This document shows positions 31,172 to 49,533 of a stretch of 64,000 bases of DNA, one piece after another. The stretch is from Bacteroidia bacterium. GTDB taxonomy: Bacteria; Bacteroidota; Bacteroidia; CAIKAF01. The notes under the pieces were generated by a model. It ran no database searches, was not told the origin of the DNA, and saw only the letters and a list, made by a program, of their open reading frames with translations. Each line of letters begins with the position of its first letter. Position 1 is the first letter of the stretch. The stretch is from positions 62,001 to 126,000 of the forward strand of contig JAUHWY010000004.1 of NCBI GenBank assembly GCA_030427255.1. Direction: 5' to 3'. The translations under genes and the position numbers were made by a program.

Positions 31172-32434
31172 ATGTGTAGAAGTCTTTGCTTGGCGCTTTT
31201 GTTTGTTTTAGGTTTTGGCTCCCAAGCCAAAGCAGGGTATTTGTTGGTGCCAATGGATCAAAATCAGTCCAACCACCTCAAAGCCTATGGCTTGGCTTAT
31301 TGGGTGCTGGGTTTTGAAACCGATATCTATTGGTTGCTAAACTATAGGGGCGGTGCGTTCATGTTTAAAGCCCACCCCGATTTTGAGGCAGAATGCCGCA
31401 TCCGTGGTATTTCTTTTGAAAGCATTGCCGATGCTAAGTCCACTCAAATTTTGGCCGAGCTTTCGGCGCCGGACGTCAATATGGATGCAGTAAAGCTGGA
31501 GAAGCAGCCAAGAATTGCAGTGTATTCCCCCCCCGGAAAACAACCTTGGGACGATGCAGTAACCCTAGTACTTACTTATGCCGAAATTCCCTACGATGTA
31601 ATTTACGACGAAGAGGTCATTGGGGGGGAATTGCCTACCTACGATTGGCTTCACTTGCACCACGAAGATTTTACCGGCCAATACGGCAGGTTTTGGGCAG
31701 GGTATCGTAACATGCCTTGGTACCAAGAACAGGTCCGTAGTTCCGAGGCTCTTGCCCGCAAATTGGGATTTGAAAAGGTGTCGCAATTGAAGCTGGGCGT
31801 CGCCAAAAAAATCCGCGATTTCACCGCCGGAGGTGGATATTTATTTGCCATGTGCTCCGCTACCGATTCCTATGATATTGCTCTAGCTGCCGAAGGAGTA
31901 GACATTTGCGAAAGTATGTTTGATGGAGATCCTATGGATCCTAAGGCGCAACAAAAATTAGATTACTCCAAAACGTTTGCTTTTAAAGATTTTCGCCTCT
32001 CCCTAAATCCTATGGAATACGAGTATTCCAACATTGACAATACCAACTTTAGAAGGGTGCAAAAAAATCTGGACTTTTTTACCCTTTTTGAGTTTTCTGC
32101 CAAATGGGACCCTGTGCCTACCATGCTTACTCAAAATCATCAACGAGTAGTATATGGCTTCATGGGACAAACCACTGCTTTTAATAAGGCAACCCTCAAA
32201 AGCAATGTGCTCATCATGGGCGAGCAAAAAGAAGCCAACGAAGCGCGTTATATCCATGGTGAATTTGGAAAGGGGTTTTGGACTTTTTATGGTGGACATG
32301 ACCCGGAAGATTATCAACATTTTGTGGGCGACCCACCTACCGATTTGGCTTTACATCCCAATAGTCCGGGCTACCGGTTAATTTTAAATAATGTGTTGTT
32401 TCCGGCGGCAAAGAAAAAGAAGCAGAAGACCTGA
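31172..32434 (+). CDS. exported protein of the Bacteroidota 'asparagine synthetase B' group
   Basis: 420 residues. Signal peptide MCRSLCLALLFVLGFGSQAKA precedes GYLLVPMDQNQSNHLKAYGLAYW. Homologs directly after dnaB are widespread in Bacteroidota, usually annotated as asparagine synthetase B; no glutaminase Cys at residue 2 of the mature protein and no PP-loop ATP motif are visible, so I doubt that name. The middle (RIAVYSPPGKQPWDDAVTLVL, DYDWLHLHHEDFTG-like, GGYLFAMCSATDSYD) suggests a class I glutamine-amidotransferase/ThuA-type fold. The C-terminus is Lys-rich. Role unknown. Stop codon is followed within 5 nt by a heptamer repeat and hairpin array. Confidence 0.8.
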   Translation: MCRSLCLALLFVLGFGSQAKAGYLLVPMDQNQSNHLKAYGLAYWVLGFETDIYWLLNYRGGAFMFKAHPDFEAECRIRGISFESIADAKSTQILAELSAPDVNMDAVKLEKQPRIAVYSPPGKQPWDDAVTLVLTYAEIPYDVIYDEEVIGGELPTYDWLHLHHEDFTGQYGRFWAGYRNMPWYQEQVRSSEALARKLGFEKVSQLKLGVAKKIRDFTAGGGYLFAMCSATDSYDIALAAEGVDICESMFDGDPMDPKAQQKLDYSKTFAFKDFRLSLNPMEYEYSNIDNTNFRRVQKNLDFFTLFEFSAKWDPVPTMLTQNHQRVVYGFMGQTTAFNKATLKSNVLIMGEQKEANEARYIHGEFGKGFWTFYGGHDPEDYQHFVGDPPTDLALHPNSPGYRLILNNVLFPAAKKKKQKT

Positions 32435-32438
32435 GGAG

Positions 32439-32590
32439 GAATGGTGAATGGTGAATGGTGAGGTAAAGACGGGATGCCTCCCGTCTCTTATGACGCAGTA
32501 AAGACGGAATGCCTCCCGTCTCTTATGACGCAGTAAAGACGGAATGCCTTCCGTCTCCTAATGATAAGTGAAGACGCAACATCTTGCGTC
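32439..32590 (+). repeat. short heptamer array plus four hairpins at 35-bp spacing
   Basis: Three GAATGGT units (32439-32459) run into GAGGTAAA and then four 18-nt hairpins starting at 32468, 32503, 32538 and 32573, exactly 35 bp apart. Stems: GACGGGA/TCCCGTC, GACGGAA/TCCCGTC (one G-U), GACGGAA/TTCCGTC and GACGCAA/TTGCGTC, each with a 4-nt loop. The first three share the 17-bp spacer TCTTATGACGCAGTAAA. The last is followed by eight T and can serve as an intrinsic terminator for the upstream gene. Confidence 0.9.
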
Positions 32591-32601
32591 TCATTTTTTT
32601 T

Positions 32602-32752
32602 GGCCGCCTTATCCTGCTGTCTGCGGTAGTGCCACGTCTCCGGCCCACGGTCTGCGGCCGCTCCGGGGTCTTCGTTCCTCAGCCTCCTCGCTTGGCCGCA
32701 TACCGGGGCCAGAGCCGCGTCAGCTACCTGCTTCCATCAGGGGCGGAAGAGT
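32602..32752. repeat. GC-rich intergenic hairpin element, copy F
   Basis: GC-rich block between two heptamer arrays. It opens GGCCGCCTTATCC, like GGCGCCATATCC in the block at 60671, and contains a stem TGCGGCC with GGCCGCA. No coding sense seen. Confidence 0.6.
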
Positions 32753-32772
32753 ACCGAATCAAAAAAGAAAGG

Positions 32773-32975
32773 TTAAATGATGAGGTAAAGACGGGATGCC
32801 TCCGGTCTATCAATGATCAATGATGAATGGTGAATGATCAATGATGAATGGTGAATGATAAATGATGAATGATGAATGATGAATGGTGAATGGTGAATGG
32901 TGAATGATGAATGATAAATGATGAATGATAAATGGTGATGTAGATACGTGATGCCTCCCGTCTCCCTGGTGCCCC
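32773..32975 (+). repeat. heptamer array with flanking hairpin remnants
   Basis: Eighteen 7-bp units of the form (G/A/C)AATGRT at 32811-32936. Before it lies AAATGAT-GAGGTAAA and a copy of the hairpin (GACGGGA....TCCGGTC, one mismatch); after it a decayed copy (GATGCCTCCCGTCTC, near 32949-32964). Same joint rule as in the arrays at 32439 and 49163. Confidence 0.85.
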
Positions 32976-33056: not shown

Positions 33057-33606
33057 ATGATTAAGGTGTTTCTCTTTTGGTTTTGCTTGTTGGGGAGGCT
33101 TTTTGGGCAGTTGGATTCCGTGCCCGGTCAAAATGGCAGTTCAATAGTAATTTTAGAGTCTTCCTCTCGTGCCGGGGCGGCGCCAAGGGTATTTGAAAAA
33201 CCCGAGAATGCCGCTGGCTTTTTGAGGCGTGGAGGTCAAAGGATAACTCTGGGCTTAGGATTGGGATTGGCCGGCCCCACATTAGCCTTAACTCCGCTTG
33301 CTTTCTCCTCGAATTCGGAAACTACCCTACCTTTAGAGACCGTTGACGCGTTGTGTTTTCAAGGCGAATTAAGGCACGGCCAAATTGAAAGTCCGCAGTT
33401 TACTGATTGTAAATGAGGAACTTGAGATTTGGCCGTAACGAAAAGTCGCCGCCAGAATAGCAGCGCATCAACGGTCTCCTTTTGCTGTTGCCGGAGGACT
33501 GATTGGCCTTATTGGCTATGGTTTTTTGTTTGCCGGAGCAAACGATGTTCGGAAGGCCGGAATTTGTTTGAGCAGTGAGGGTGTGGGTTTGGGTGTCCGG
33601 TTTTAA
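33057..33606 (+). pseudogene. small exported glycine-rich membrane protein gene split by a MITE-like insertion
   Basis: The 5' part (33057-33334) encodes a signal peptide (MIKVFLFWFCLLGRLFGQ) and a protein reaching GGQRITLGLGLGLAGP...TTLP. The element at 33335-33477 then intervenes; read through, translation stops at 33416. Removing the element plus one 5-bp copy of CCTTT joins the frame without a gap as TTLP-FAVAGGLIGLIGYG...GLGVRF and a stop at 33604-33606, a protein of about 133 residues with two hydrophobic segments. The agreement in frame, hydrophobicity and glycine richness makes the reconstruction convincing. Family and function not recognized. Confidence 0.8.
33335..33477 (+). mobile_element. 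143-bp palindromic MITE-like element
   Basis: The ends are inverted repeats: GAGACCGTTGACGCG at the left against CGCATCAACGGTCTC at the right. Inside, ACGGCCAAAT pairs with ATTTGGCCGT and the centre is TTTAC-TGATT-GTAAA, so the whole element can form one cruciform. CCTTT occurs at 33330-33334 and again at 33478-33482, fitting a 5-bp target duplication (exact end assignment is uncertain by 1-2 bp). A homologous copy is at 7103-7380. No ORF inside; it must depend on a transposase elsewhere. Confidence 0.8.
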
Positions 33607-47015: not shown

Positions 47016-49178
47016 ATGCGTTTTCTTTTTCTTGCTTTGATTTTGACGGCGTCGGCGGTGGCTCAGCGGCCATTTACCTTGGAGGATATTTGGGTGAACT
47101 ATTGGTTTTTTCCGCGCGGGGCGGAGGGCTTTAATGCCACGGCAGACGGCAAGCACTATTTGGCAGAGGACGATGGCGGTTTGGCCAAATATCGATTCGA
47201 CGCAGAGGCGCCGGTGGCCGGCTACCGTTTTTCTTTTGAGGGTCGACCTTTAGATGGCTTTGACAGCTACCGTCTTTCGTCGGATGAGCAAAAGGTTTTG
47301 TTGGCTACGGAAACGGAGTCGATTTATCGGTATTCGTCGCGGTCGCTGTATTTGGTGGGGAATCTGGCGGATGGAGAGTTGCGGCCATTGACCGAGGGGC
47401 AAAAGGTGCGCTATGCGGATTTTTCGCCTGATGGGAAGCATGTGAGTTATGTAAGTGGCAATAATTTATATATTAAGAGTTTAGAAGATAATACTTTACG
47501 TAAAATTACGGAAGATGGAAAAGTCAATTCCATTATTAACGGGGCTTCGGATTGGGTGTATGAGGAGGAGTTTGAATTGGTGCAGGCCTATGACTGGTCG
47601 CCCTCTTCTGCCTATTTGGCCTATTTAAAGTTTGACGAGTCCGAAGTTCCGGAGTTTACCATGCCAATGTTTGGCGGTGGTTTGTATCCGGAAAACTATG
47701 TGTTTAAATACCCCAAAGTGGGCGAAAAGAATGCCGAAGTGAGCGCTTGGGTCCATCACGTGGCTTCGGGGAAAGCGGTACAGGTGTCGCTTCCTTCCGG
47801 TGTAGAGTATTTGCCGCGGCTTTGGTGGACGCCGGACGACCGCCTGGTGCTCTTGGTGATGAACCGGCTGCAAAACCACATGCGTTTGCTTTTGGCTGAT
47901 CCGGAAAGCGGTAGTACGCGAGTTATTTGGGAGGAGCGCAGCGATACGTATTTGGAGCTGCCCGAGGACCCGGTGTTTTTGGCCGGCAGCAGCCGCTATT
48001 TGCTCACCAGCGAAAAGAGCGGTTTCAAGCATTTGTATGTGAACGATTTTGAGAAACAAAGCTCAGAGGCTCTAACAGAAGGTGCTTGGGAGATTCGCGA
48101 CTTTTTGGGTTTTCATGAAGGAAGGAAGGAGGCGCTGTATACCTCCACCGAAACCGGTTCCATGGAAACGCAGTTGTTTGCAGTAAATTTGAAGGGCAAG
48201 AAACGGCAAATTACCAAGGCACCGGGTACCCATGACATTTCTTGGAGTGGCGATTATTTTGTGGACAACTACAGCCGTGCGCATGCGCCTTACCGAGCTG
48301 GGCTCTATGATTTGGACGGAAACGAGTTGAGGGTGCTCAACCAGGAAGCATACGATATATACCAAAAGTTGTATAATGAGCAGCTGCAGTTGAAACCTCC
48401 GGTTTTTTTCTCAGCCCCCGCTGCGGATGGCAGTTCATTGAATGCCTTTGCGATTTATCCGCCCAATTTTGATTCCAGCAAGACCTATCCGGTACTCATG
48501 TATGTGTACGGTGGTCCCGGAAGTCAGGAGGTTACGGATGGTTGGATGGGTCCCAACTACGGATGGTTTCAATACCTGAGCACACGTGGCGTGGTGGTGG
48601 TTTGCGCCGACAACCGTGGCACGGGAGGTCGAGGCAAGGCCTTTCGCGACATAACTTACGGTCGTTTGGGCGAAATAGAGACCCGCGATCAATTGAGCGT
48701 GGCGCGCTGGCTGCAAGCTAAGTCTTGGGTCAAAGACGATGCCATAGCCATGTTTGGCTGGAGTTATGGCGGTTATATGACGGCCTTGTGTACCTTTCAG
48801 GGGAGCGATGTGTTGAGCGCCGGAATCAGCGTGGCGCCGGTTACCAATTGGAGGTTTTACGACAATATTTATACCGAGCGCTATATGGGGACCATGCAAA
48901 CCAATCCCAAAGGCTTTGATAAGCAAGCTCCCATTCGATTTGCAGATAAACTTGAGGGAGACTTTTTGTTGATTCACGGTAGCGCCGACGACAATGTGCA
49001 TTGGCAAAACACGGCAGAGTTGAGCATGGCCTTGATTCAGGCGAACAAGGACTTTGAGCAATTCATTTATCCGGACAAGAATCATGGCATTTATGGCGGG
49101 AATACGCGCCTGCATTTGTACCGAATGATGACCCGGTTTTTGGAGGAGAAAGTGGGGGGGATGAATGGGGAATGGTGA
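47016..49178 (+). CDS. DPP-IV-type S9 serine peptidase, exported
   Basis: 720 residues. Signal peptide MRFLFLALILTASAVAQ. An N-terminal beta-propeller (about 20-470) has DWVYEEEF, the double-Glu motif that in DPP-IV anchors the substrate N-terminus. The C-terminal hydrolase domain has GWSYGGYMT (nucleophile Ser), GSADDNVH (Asp) and DKNHGIYG (His). It removes X-Pro dipeptides, or X-X-Pro tripeptides, in the periplasm. Two POT peptide transporters lie downstream and fit uptake of its products. The last codons (GMNGEW) coincide with the start of a heptamer array. Confidence 0.95.
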   Translation: MRFLFLALILTASAVAQRPFTLEDIWVNYWFFPRGAEGFNATADGKHYLAEDDGGLAKYRFDAEAPVAGYRFSFEGRPLDGFDSYRLSSDEQKVLLATETESIYRYSSRSLYLVGNLADGELRPLTEGQKVRYADFSPDGKHVSYVSGNNLYIKSLEDNTLRKITEDGKVNSIINGASDWVYEEEFELVQAYDWSPSSAYLAYLKFDESEVPEFTMPMFGGGLYPENYVFKYPKVGEKNAEVSAWVHHVASGKAVQVSLPSGVEYLPRLWWTPDDRLVLLVMNRLQNHMRLLLADPESGSTRVIWEERSDTYLELPEDPVFLAGSSRYLLTSEKSGFKHLYVNDFEKQSSEALTEGAWEIRDFLGFHEGRKEALYTSTETGSMETQLFAVNLKGKKRQITKAPGTHDISWSGDYFVDNYSRAHAPYRAGLYDLDGNELRVLNQEAYDIYQKLYNEQLQLKPPVFFSAPAADGSSLNAFAIYPPNFDSSKTYPVLMYVYGGPGSQEVTDGWMGPNYGWFQYLSTRGVVVVCADNRGTGGRGKAFRDITYGRLGEIETRDQLSVARWLQAKSWVKDDAIAMFGWSYGGYMTALCTFQGSDVLSAGISVAPVTNWRFYDNIYTERYMGTMQTNPKGFDKQAPIRFADKLEGDFLLIHGSADDNVHWQNTAELSMALIQANKDFEQFIYPDKNHGIYGGNTRLHLYRMMTRFLEEKVGGMNGEW

Positions 49179-49414
49179 ATGGTGAATGATGGATGGTGAA
49201 TGATGGATGGTGAATGATGGATGGTGAATGATGGATGGTGAATGATGAATGGTGAATGATGAATGGTGAATGATGAATGGTGAATGATGAATGGTGAATG
49301 GTGAATGGTGAATGATGAATGGTGAATGGTGAATGATGGATGGTGAATGATGGATGGTGAATGATGGATGGTGAATGATGGATGGTGAATGATGAATGGT
49401 GAATGATGAATGAT
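49163..49414 (+). repeat. heptamer tandem array, about 36 units
   Basis: Thirty-six 7-bp units, strictly in phase, of forms GAATGGT, GAATGAT and GGATGGT, often in the 14-bp order GAATGAT-GRATGGT. It starts inside the final codons of the peptidase gene and ends at GAGGTAG, directly before an 18-nt hairpin (49423-49440). Length variation by slippage is likely; the two strands also carry long spurious frames rich in His and Ser. Confidence 0.95.
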
Positions 49415-49422
49415 GAGGTAGT

Positions 49423-49440
49423 GATGGGCTGTCCCCCATC
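49423..49440 (+). repeat. 18-nt hairpin joined to the heptamer array
   Basis: GATGGG pairs with CCCATC around a short loop. Compared with the hairpin GACGGG/CCCGTC at 32468 this is a paired C-G to T-A change at the same position, and the flanks GAGGTA and TCT are the same. So it is the same element with a compensated stem. Confidence 0.75.
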
Positions 49441-49443
49441 TCT

Positions 49444-49533
49444 GAAGCTTTTTCTGTATCGCATCATAGTTTGGATGTGGTGCACCGGTATATCCAGAAC
49501 CAAAAGATTCGGCATAGGGAAGGGAAGGGATGA
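49444..49533 (+). pseudogene. fragment of a Y1 (IS200/RAYT-type) transposase, C-terminal
   Basis: The frame reads EAFSVSHHSLDVVHRYIQNQ then KIRHREGKG and a stop. The pattern FSVSxxxxxxVxxYIxNQxxHH is that of the last conserved block of Bacteroidota IS200-like/REP-associated tyrosine transposases (Y1_Tnp, PF01797). No upstream coding part, with its HUH motif and catalytic Tyr, remains: the fragment begins 4 bp after the hairpin. A frame shift near 49529 may extend it slightly. It is short, so the similarity is suggestive rather than proven. Confidence 0.6.

Follow-up and report, generated by a model that had tools for sequence, protein, structure and literature searches.

Repetitive extragenic palindromes (REPs) are among the commonest repeats of bacterial chromosomes, and how they spread and cluster is unsettled. 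REPs are short palindromes that carry an unpaired GTAG tag and are cognate to RAYT/TnpA-REP enzymes (PMC3733652, PMC6006769). The degeneracy described for the tag affects its second and third positions (Di Nocera et al. 2013, PMC3733652), and a change at position 4 (GTAC) abolished cleavage by a Stenotrophomonas TnpA-REP (PMC8266576). Having REPs inserted in the TnpA-REP gene itself is described as peculiar to subclass 2.4, which is abundant in Cyanobacteria and Bacteroidetes (PMC6006769).

Here we analyse a hairpin array in the window, a stretch of 64,000 nucleotides from the genome of a Bacteroidia bacterium (G000; 3.22 Mb in 57 contigs), together with five other genomes of the genus (G001 to G005). 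With high probability, the array consists of a few head-to-tail copies of a repeat that descends from a REP. The cognate enzyme of that REP would be a subclass-2.4-like RAYT/TnpA-REP, an HUH single-strand endonuclease, and the repeat would have spread largely by local tandem duplication. Both the action of such an enzyme on the window units and the mechanism of their duplication are what we infer here. A point against this reading is the presence of other dispersed repeats at the same sites.

The window array

The intergenic stretch behind the gene at 31172-32434 contains four hairpins, which follow one another at a step of exactly 35 bp. Their 18-nt forms start at 32468, 32503, 32538 and 32573, or at 32467, 32502, 32537 and 32572 if the closing A-T pair is included; starts and step reproduce those of the original prediction. 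We delimit the REP unit as 25 nt: an unpaired 4-nt tag, an 8-bp stem that encloses a 4-nt loop, and a final C. The tag reads GTAA in units 1 to 3 and GTGA in unit 4. The features of the array and its downstream flank are as follows.

32439..32461, plus strand: short (GAATGGT)n heptamer array, immediately before unit 1
32463..32487, plus strand: REP unit 1, tag GTAA, stem AGACGGGA/TCCCGTCT, loop TGCC
32498..32522, plus strand: REP unit 2, tag GTAA, stem AGACGGAA/TCCCGTCT, one A·C mismatch, loop TGCC
32533..32557, plus strand: REP unit 3, tag GTAA, stem AGACGGAA/TTCCGTCT, loop TGCC
32568..32592, plus strand: REP unit 4, tag GTGA, stem AGACGCAA/TTGCGTCT, loop CATC
32595..32762, plus strand: 168-bp GC-rich dispersed repeat with T8 at its start (BLAST, 26 genome hits)
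32785..32809, plus strand: degenerate REP unit, tag GTAA, 1 mismatch to the pattern
32812..32938, plus strand: heptamer array, 18 AATGATG-like copies
32940..32964, plus strand: degenerate REP unit, tag GTAG, 1 mismatch to the pattern

The stem changes had been described as paired, which is true of three of the four units; unit 2 joins the 5' arm found in unit 3 to the 3' arm found in unit 1, giving GGAA/TCCC and hence the A·C mismatch. As single-stranded DNA, units 1, 3 and 4 are predicted to fold into 8-bp stems of -8.5, -7.7 and -8.2 kcal/mol, and unit 2 into a 6-bp stem of -5.0 kcal/mol; the 146-nt stretch has a fold z of -5.5 against shuffles. The 4-nt loop is constant in size but not in sequence (TGCC, TGCC, TGCC, CATC), and the common 17-nt spacer is identical after units 1 and 2 but different after unit 3.

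Two further elements lie in the same window. At 49160-49445, downstream of a gene that we take to be peptidase-like, a 257-bp heptamer array precedes a hairpin-like sequence that has a GTAG tag but a different stem. Inside the gene starting at 33057, an element of 143 bp (33336-33478) is bounded by terminal inverted repeats of 18 bp (89% complementary) and looks like a MITE; it is missing from the G004 orthologue of that gene and has near full-length relatives of 87-91% identity at L270 and L077/L078, the latter splitting a copy of the 168-bp repeat.

Stem pairing and genomic distribution

Does pairing of the stem matter, as had been proposed from four units? We compared the two arms in 143 units of the own genome, drawn from the loci up to contig C22, the RAYT-like locus on C37 and the window; 20 units whose outer 3' stem had two or more mismatches were left out, and the search anchor misses GTGA, so that window unit 4 lies outside these counts. 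All three inner stem positions are paired in 127 of the 143 units; when the 3' arms were reshuffled 1000 times, the mean was 57 and the highest count 70. The sister genome G004 behaves alike (59/70 stems paired; shuffles 38, maximum 47). From other genomes, a pattern that left two pairs free retrieved 149 units at 104 loci in Bacteroidota, Planctomycetaceae, Parabeggiatoa, Spirochaetaceae and Fusobacteriaceae (174 units if the loci of Flavobacteriales bacterium M30B58 are counted), and 147 of the 149 pair at both free inner positions, in six pairing types; shuffles gave 68, and at most 87. Alternative complementary stem residues, a mark of REPs, are therefore present in the own and in other genomes. 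The covariation, far above that of shuffled arms in 143 own and 149 foreign units, bears out the proposal, and we regard it as well supported that stem pairing matters, although the copies are related and the events not independent. Template-switch correction of palindromes could contribute to the paired stems.

The unit is also abundant. A tagged, non-palindromic pattern at up to one mismatch has 257 matches in the whole of G000 (131 + 126) and none with the reversed-pattern control (0 + 0), and a slightly shorter form has 94 + 91 exact matches, as befits a high-copy, dispersed short palindrome of the REP kind. The pattern behind these whole-genome figures differs somewhat from the one that defined the 143 units. 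The genome search suggested by the original prediction hence reveals the opposite of a unique unit with unsupported stem changes: copies throughout the genome, with covarying stems. Within the genus, the tagged pattern matches 82 + 46 times in G004, 6 + 4 times in G001, 1 + 1 times in G005 and not at all in the other two; outside it, a single match was found in one of 54 genomes. A pattern with the ten inner positions free matches 11 of 31 genomes, the own one among them, and has 2-11 copies in each of those outside the genus. The units are mainly intergenic, 21 of 28 clusters overlapping no ORF of at least 150 aa by crude gene calls.

In its GTAG-tagged form the hairpin is abundant in Candidatus Parabeggiatoa (L127, L130, L170 and other loci), where 33 of 52 units stand head-to-tail, most often at 59-60 bp. 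It is likewise abundant in Planctomycetaceae, where 46 of 77 units have an inverted partner. The occurrence in these two groups may reflect either horizontal spread or an old family. We found no published description of this REP family in the literature on Bacteroidetes REPs, head-to-tail REPs, heptamers and small dispersed repeats, which does not prove that none exists.

RAYT genes, tags and array growth

The link to RAYT enzymes comes from hairpins located in their genes. The own RAYT (G000:C15:57861-58505), detected with NF047646 at a score below the cut-off, holds GTAGAGACGCAATGCATTGCGTCTCTAC in frame, a 28-nt double-foot hairpin whose two ends read GTAG and CTAC, and has a counterpart in G004. 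The RAYT of G001 contains four in-frame hairpins at 57-bp steps, made of GTAGAGACGCAATATTTTGCGTCTC-like units, and its 3' end has a second set, spaced at 54-57 bp. Among 115 hairpin-bearing loci from other genomes and viral contigs, three (L141, L153 and L180, from other Bacteroidota) include a RAYT gene as well, and the hairpin lies within that gene or at its end. An association of the REPtron type, in which a RAYT holds or is flanked by its REP, is accordingly seen for the family, rather than for its GTAA form, at six places (own C15, G001, G003, L141, L153, L180). Six RAYTs share an invariant MP.H.H, a WQ and a Tyr near the C-terminus, and their profile matches 4er8 (TnpA-REP) over 34 residues with an E of 9e-6; Pfam and PDB searches with the single RAYT sequence gave no match. 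Around the own RAYT, which has one internal GTAG hairpin, no flanking GTAA arrays were found within about 3 kb, and this enzyme may not act on the GTAA/GTGA units.

The array in the RAYT of G001:C5 (L118:1210-1406 and 1619-1863) has a period of 57, a multiple of 3, and the protein therefore carries the repeat as peptide copies; internal repeats of like kind occur in the RAYTs of L153 and L180. Y1_Tnp genes at C44, C7 and C51 were considered as the relevant transposase and rejected, none being flanked by the hairpin. A second tandem hairpin family (L027:1187-1358, G000:C7), represented by CGACCCCGAAGGGGTCG / CGACCTCGAAGAGGTCG and showing a paired change, directly adjoins an IS200-like Y1 transposase gene.

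Outside RAYT genes, the units of this genus mostly bear a different tag. In the own-genome sample, 132 of 143 units read GTAA, eight GTAG and three something else; elsewhere, GTAG is found in 218 of 222 units at 104 loci of other genomes. The unpaired GT[AG]G 5'-foot tag of REPs is absent from window units 1 to 4 and present in related units elsewhere and in RAYT genes. Because these units carry GTAA or GTGA, and because the Stenotrophomonas enzyme no longer cleaved a REP altered at position 4, we file the window units as a REP-derived variant. By analogy with characterised TnpA-REPs, the ancestral unit would have consisted of GTAG followed by AGACG..palindrome..CGTCT, forming a single-stranded DNA hairpin that was recognised and moved by the RAYT, and most units of the genus would since have lost the final G of the tag (GTAG to GTAA).

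Tag and orientation go together in two sister genomes. At the own-genome loci, 105 of 123 GTAA units are arranged head-to-tail as against two of seven GTAG units, and G004 shows the same (56/60 versus 0/6). A cross-species association (p about 4e-15) was discarded, as it derives almost wholly from loci of Flavobacteriales bacterium M30B58; without these nine of 113 loci only four GTAA units are left, none of them head-to-tail. We keep the association for G000 and G004 only.

How might such arrays grow? The commonest unit steps are 35, 43, 36, 33 and 50 bp, and period and linker are near-constant within most arrays and different between arrays, with mixed steps in some (L017, L271). Linkers measure 11, 12, 19, 26 or 9 nt; the series 12, 19, 26 rises by 7 nt at a time, with extra AATGATG-like heptamers in its longer members. 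A heptamer pair lies within 60 bp of 45 out of 137 units on the same strand and of none on the opposite strand. We envision that linkers lengthen in 7-nt steps, long heptamer arrays probably being REP linkers expanded by slippage, and that the whole unit of hairpin plus linker would then duplicate locally in tandem to yield arrays of fixed period.

Comparison of orthologous sites shows that copy number changes between close relatives. Each of the five other members of the genus has an orthologue of the gene at 31172 (80-97% identity). At the window site, four units in G000 stand against one in G004, where the heptamer array, the 168-bp repeat and the T run are missing, and the 3' flanks of the orthologues in G001, G002 and G003, the other relatives among the four read, hold no unit. 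At C5:167531-168185, G000 has 19 GTAA units and G004 a single GTAG unit that overlaps a stop codon; G002, G003 and G005 have other DNA there. The comparison of units per locus that had been suggested thus brought out differing numbers at two sites (4 versus 1; 19 versus 1), as counted in draft assemblies that may distort them, with several arrays at contig ends.

An alternative is that the units are inert satellites, in which slippage or unequal crossing-over grows the arrays and template switching within the hairpin keeps the stems paired, with neither selection nor RAYT involved. The pairing would then have its basis in the template-switch correction of imperfect palindromes. Such an account fits the fixed period of most arrays and their identical or near-identical linkers, the departure of the GTAA tag from the motif that TnpA-REPs need, and the arms of unit 2, which are those expected from an exchange in the loop. 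It has difficulty with dispersal throughout the genome, which needs more than local slippage, with the same pairing in GTAG-tagged families of distant phyla, and with the location of the hairpin in RAYT genes; we regard it as unlikely, if still a serious contender. A REP-derived repeat that is amplified locally remains our preferred reading. Its boldest extension, which we offer tentatively and with considerable doubt, is that loss of the last G of the tag (GTAG to GTAA) turned a RAYT-dispersed single or inverted-pair repeat into a self-amplifying satellite. Its nested slippage, first in 7-nt linker steps and then in units of 33-50 bp, would have produced arrays of as many as 19 units, and these arrays are not the same in sister species. 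The case for the tag change comes from one lineage, and the change is not required for tandem order, because the GTAG units of Parabeggiatoa are also head-to-tail (33/52).

Rival functions and known repeat systems

The hairpins, and unit 4 above all, might instead be the intrinsic transcription terminator of the gene at 31172, a role that had been proposed for the last of them. Unit 4 starts its hairpin 138 bp past the stop codon on the sense strand, has a predicted RNA fold of -13.7 kcal/mol and, together with T8, matches a terminator scan (one found; 0.7 expected in shuffles). It is the only unit of the window array in which a GC-rich hairpin and a T run come together. This T run (32595-32602), however, is the left edge of the 168-bp dispersed repeat and is separated from the unit 4 stem by CA. 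The repeat has 26 BLAST hits in the genome, ten of them near full length; a GCAACATCTTGC-type hairpin (once GCGACATCTTGC) stands to the left of eight of these ten and is missing from two, and of four diverged copies compared, all but L083 (L079, L081 and L082) possess the T run but no hairpin. In the G004 loci searched, one match to the repeat was found, at 93% (L281). Further against the proposal, a T run of at least four within 10 nt follows only four of 137 units, arrays abutting gene ends are oriented both ways (eight sense, six antisense), and the structure is missing at the orthologues in the four relatives read, G004 having one unit without a T run.

Because T8 belongs to a separate repeat and only four of 137 units have a T run, we reject a general role in termination; termination as the function of the hairpins behind gene 31172 is improbable, and unit 4 with T8 may act as a predicted terminator of some transcripts at the window site. 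A corollary is that what looks like an evolved terminator, a hairpin and T run behind a gene, can consist of two repeats that abut. A structured RNA element was rejected as well: Rfam gave only weak snoRNA-like matches under the gathering scores, mostly on heptamers, and the T-run, orientation and orthologue data are contrary. A CRISPR-like array, suggested by the palindromic repeat and the constant 35-bp repeat-spacer period, can practically be excluded, as the spacers of an array are the same or almost the same, in place of the non-repetitive spacers of CRISPR.

How does the family relate to described repeats? Long, mostly intergenic 7-nt arrays recall the heptamer direct repeats, such as TAACTGA, of Beggiatoaceae, Cyanobacteria and some Bacteroidetes (PMC4679880); the heptamer differs, and the portion of that report available mentions no link to REPs. 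The tandem REP/REPIN arrays of Pseudomonas fluorescens SBW25 share even spacing and compensatory hairpin changes with those described here, but belong to a different REP family with other periods, and no heptamer linker is mentioned in the accessible part of their description (PMC3116915). With GTAG-tagged REPs (PMC3733652), the family has in common a high-copy palindrome of 20-40 bp with an unpaired 4-nt tag at one end, complementary stem sub-types, a mostly intergenic location and clusters in which flanking DNA is reiterated in tandem; it is position 4 of the tag that is changed here (GTAA). The apparent likeness to subclass 2.4 consists of in-frame REP insertions between the HUH and Tyr motifs and a GTAG/CTAC double foot as in the own RAYT. 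Most of the dispersed units here, by contrast with the double-foot REPs described for that subclass (PMC6006769), have a single foot and a GTAA tag.

The REP kind is already known, and so are tandem REP arrays (PMC3116915). Unusual here are the mostly GTAA tag, the head-to-tail order of the units and the linkers that lengthen by 7-nt steps into heptamer arrays. The genus offers one, four or 19 units at the same sites, and GTAG inside the RAYT gene with GTAA outside it; these contrasts make the role of tag and enzyme in dispersal and tandem growth directly testable. The interest of this family lies in the comparison of sister genomes, in the altered tag and in growth that is nested, by 7 nt and by whole units.
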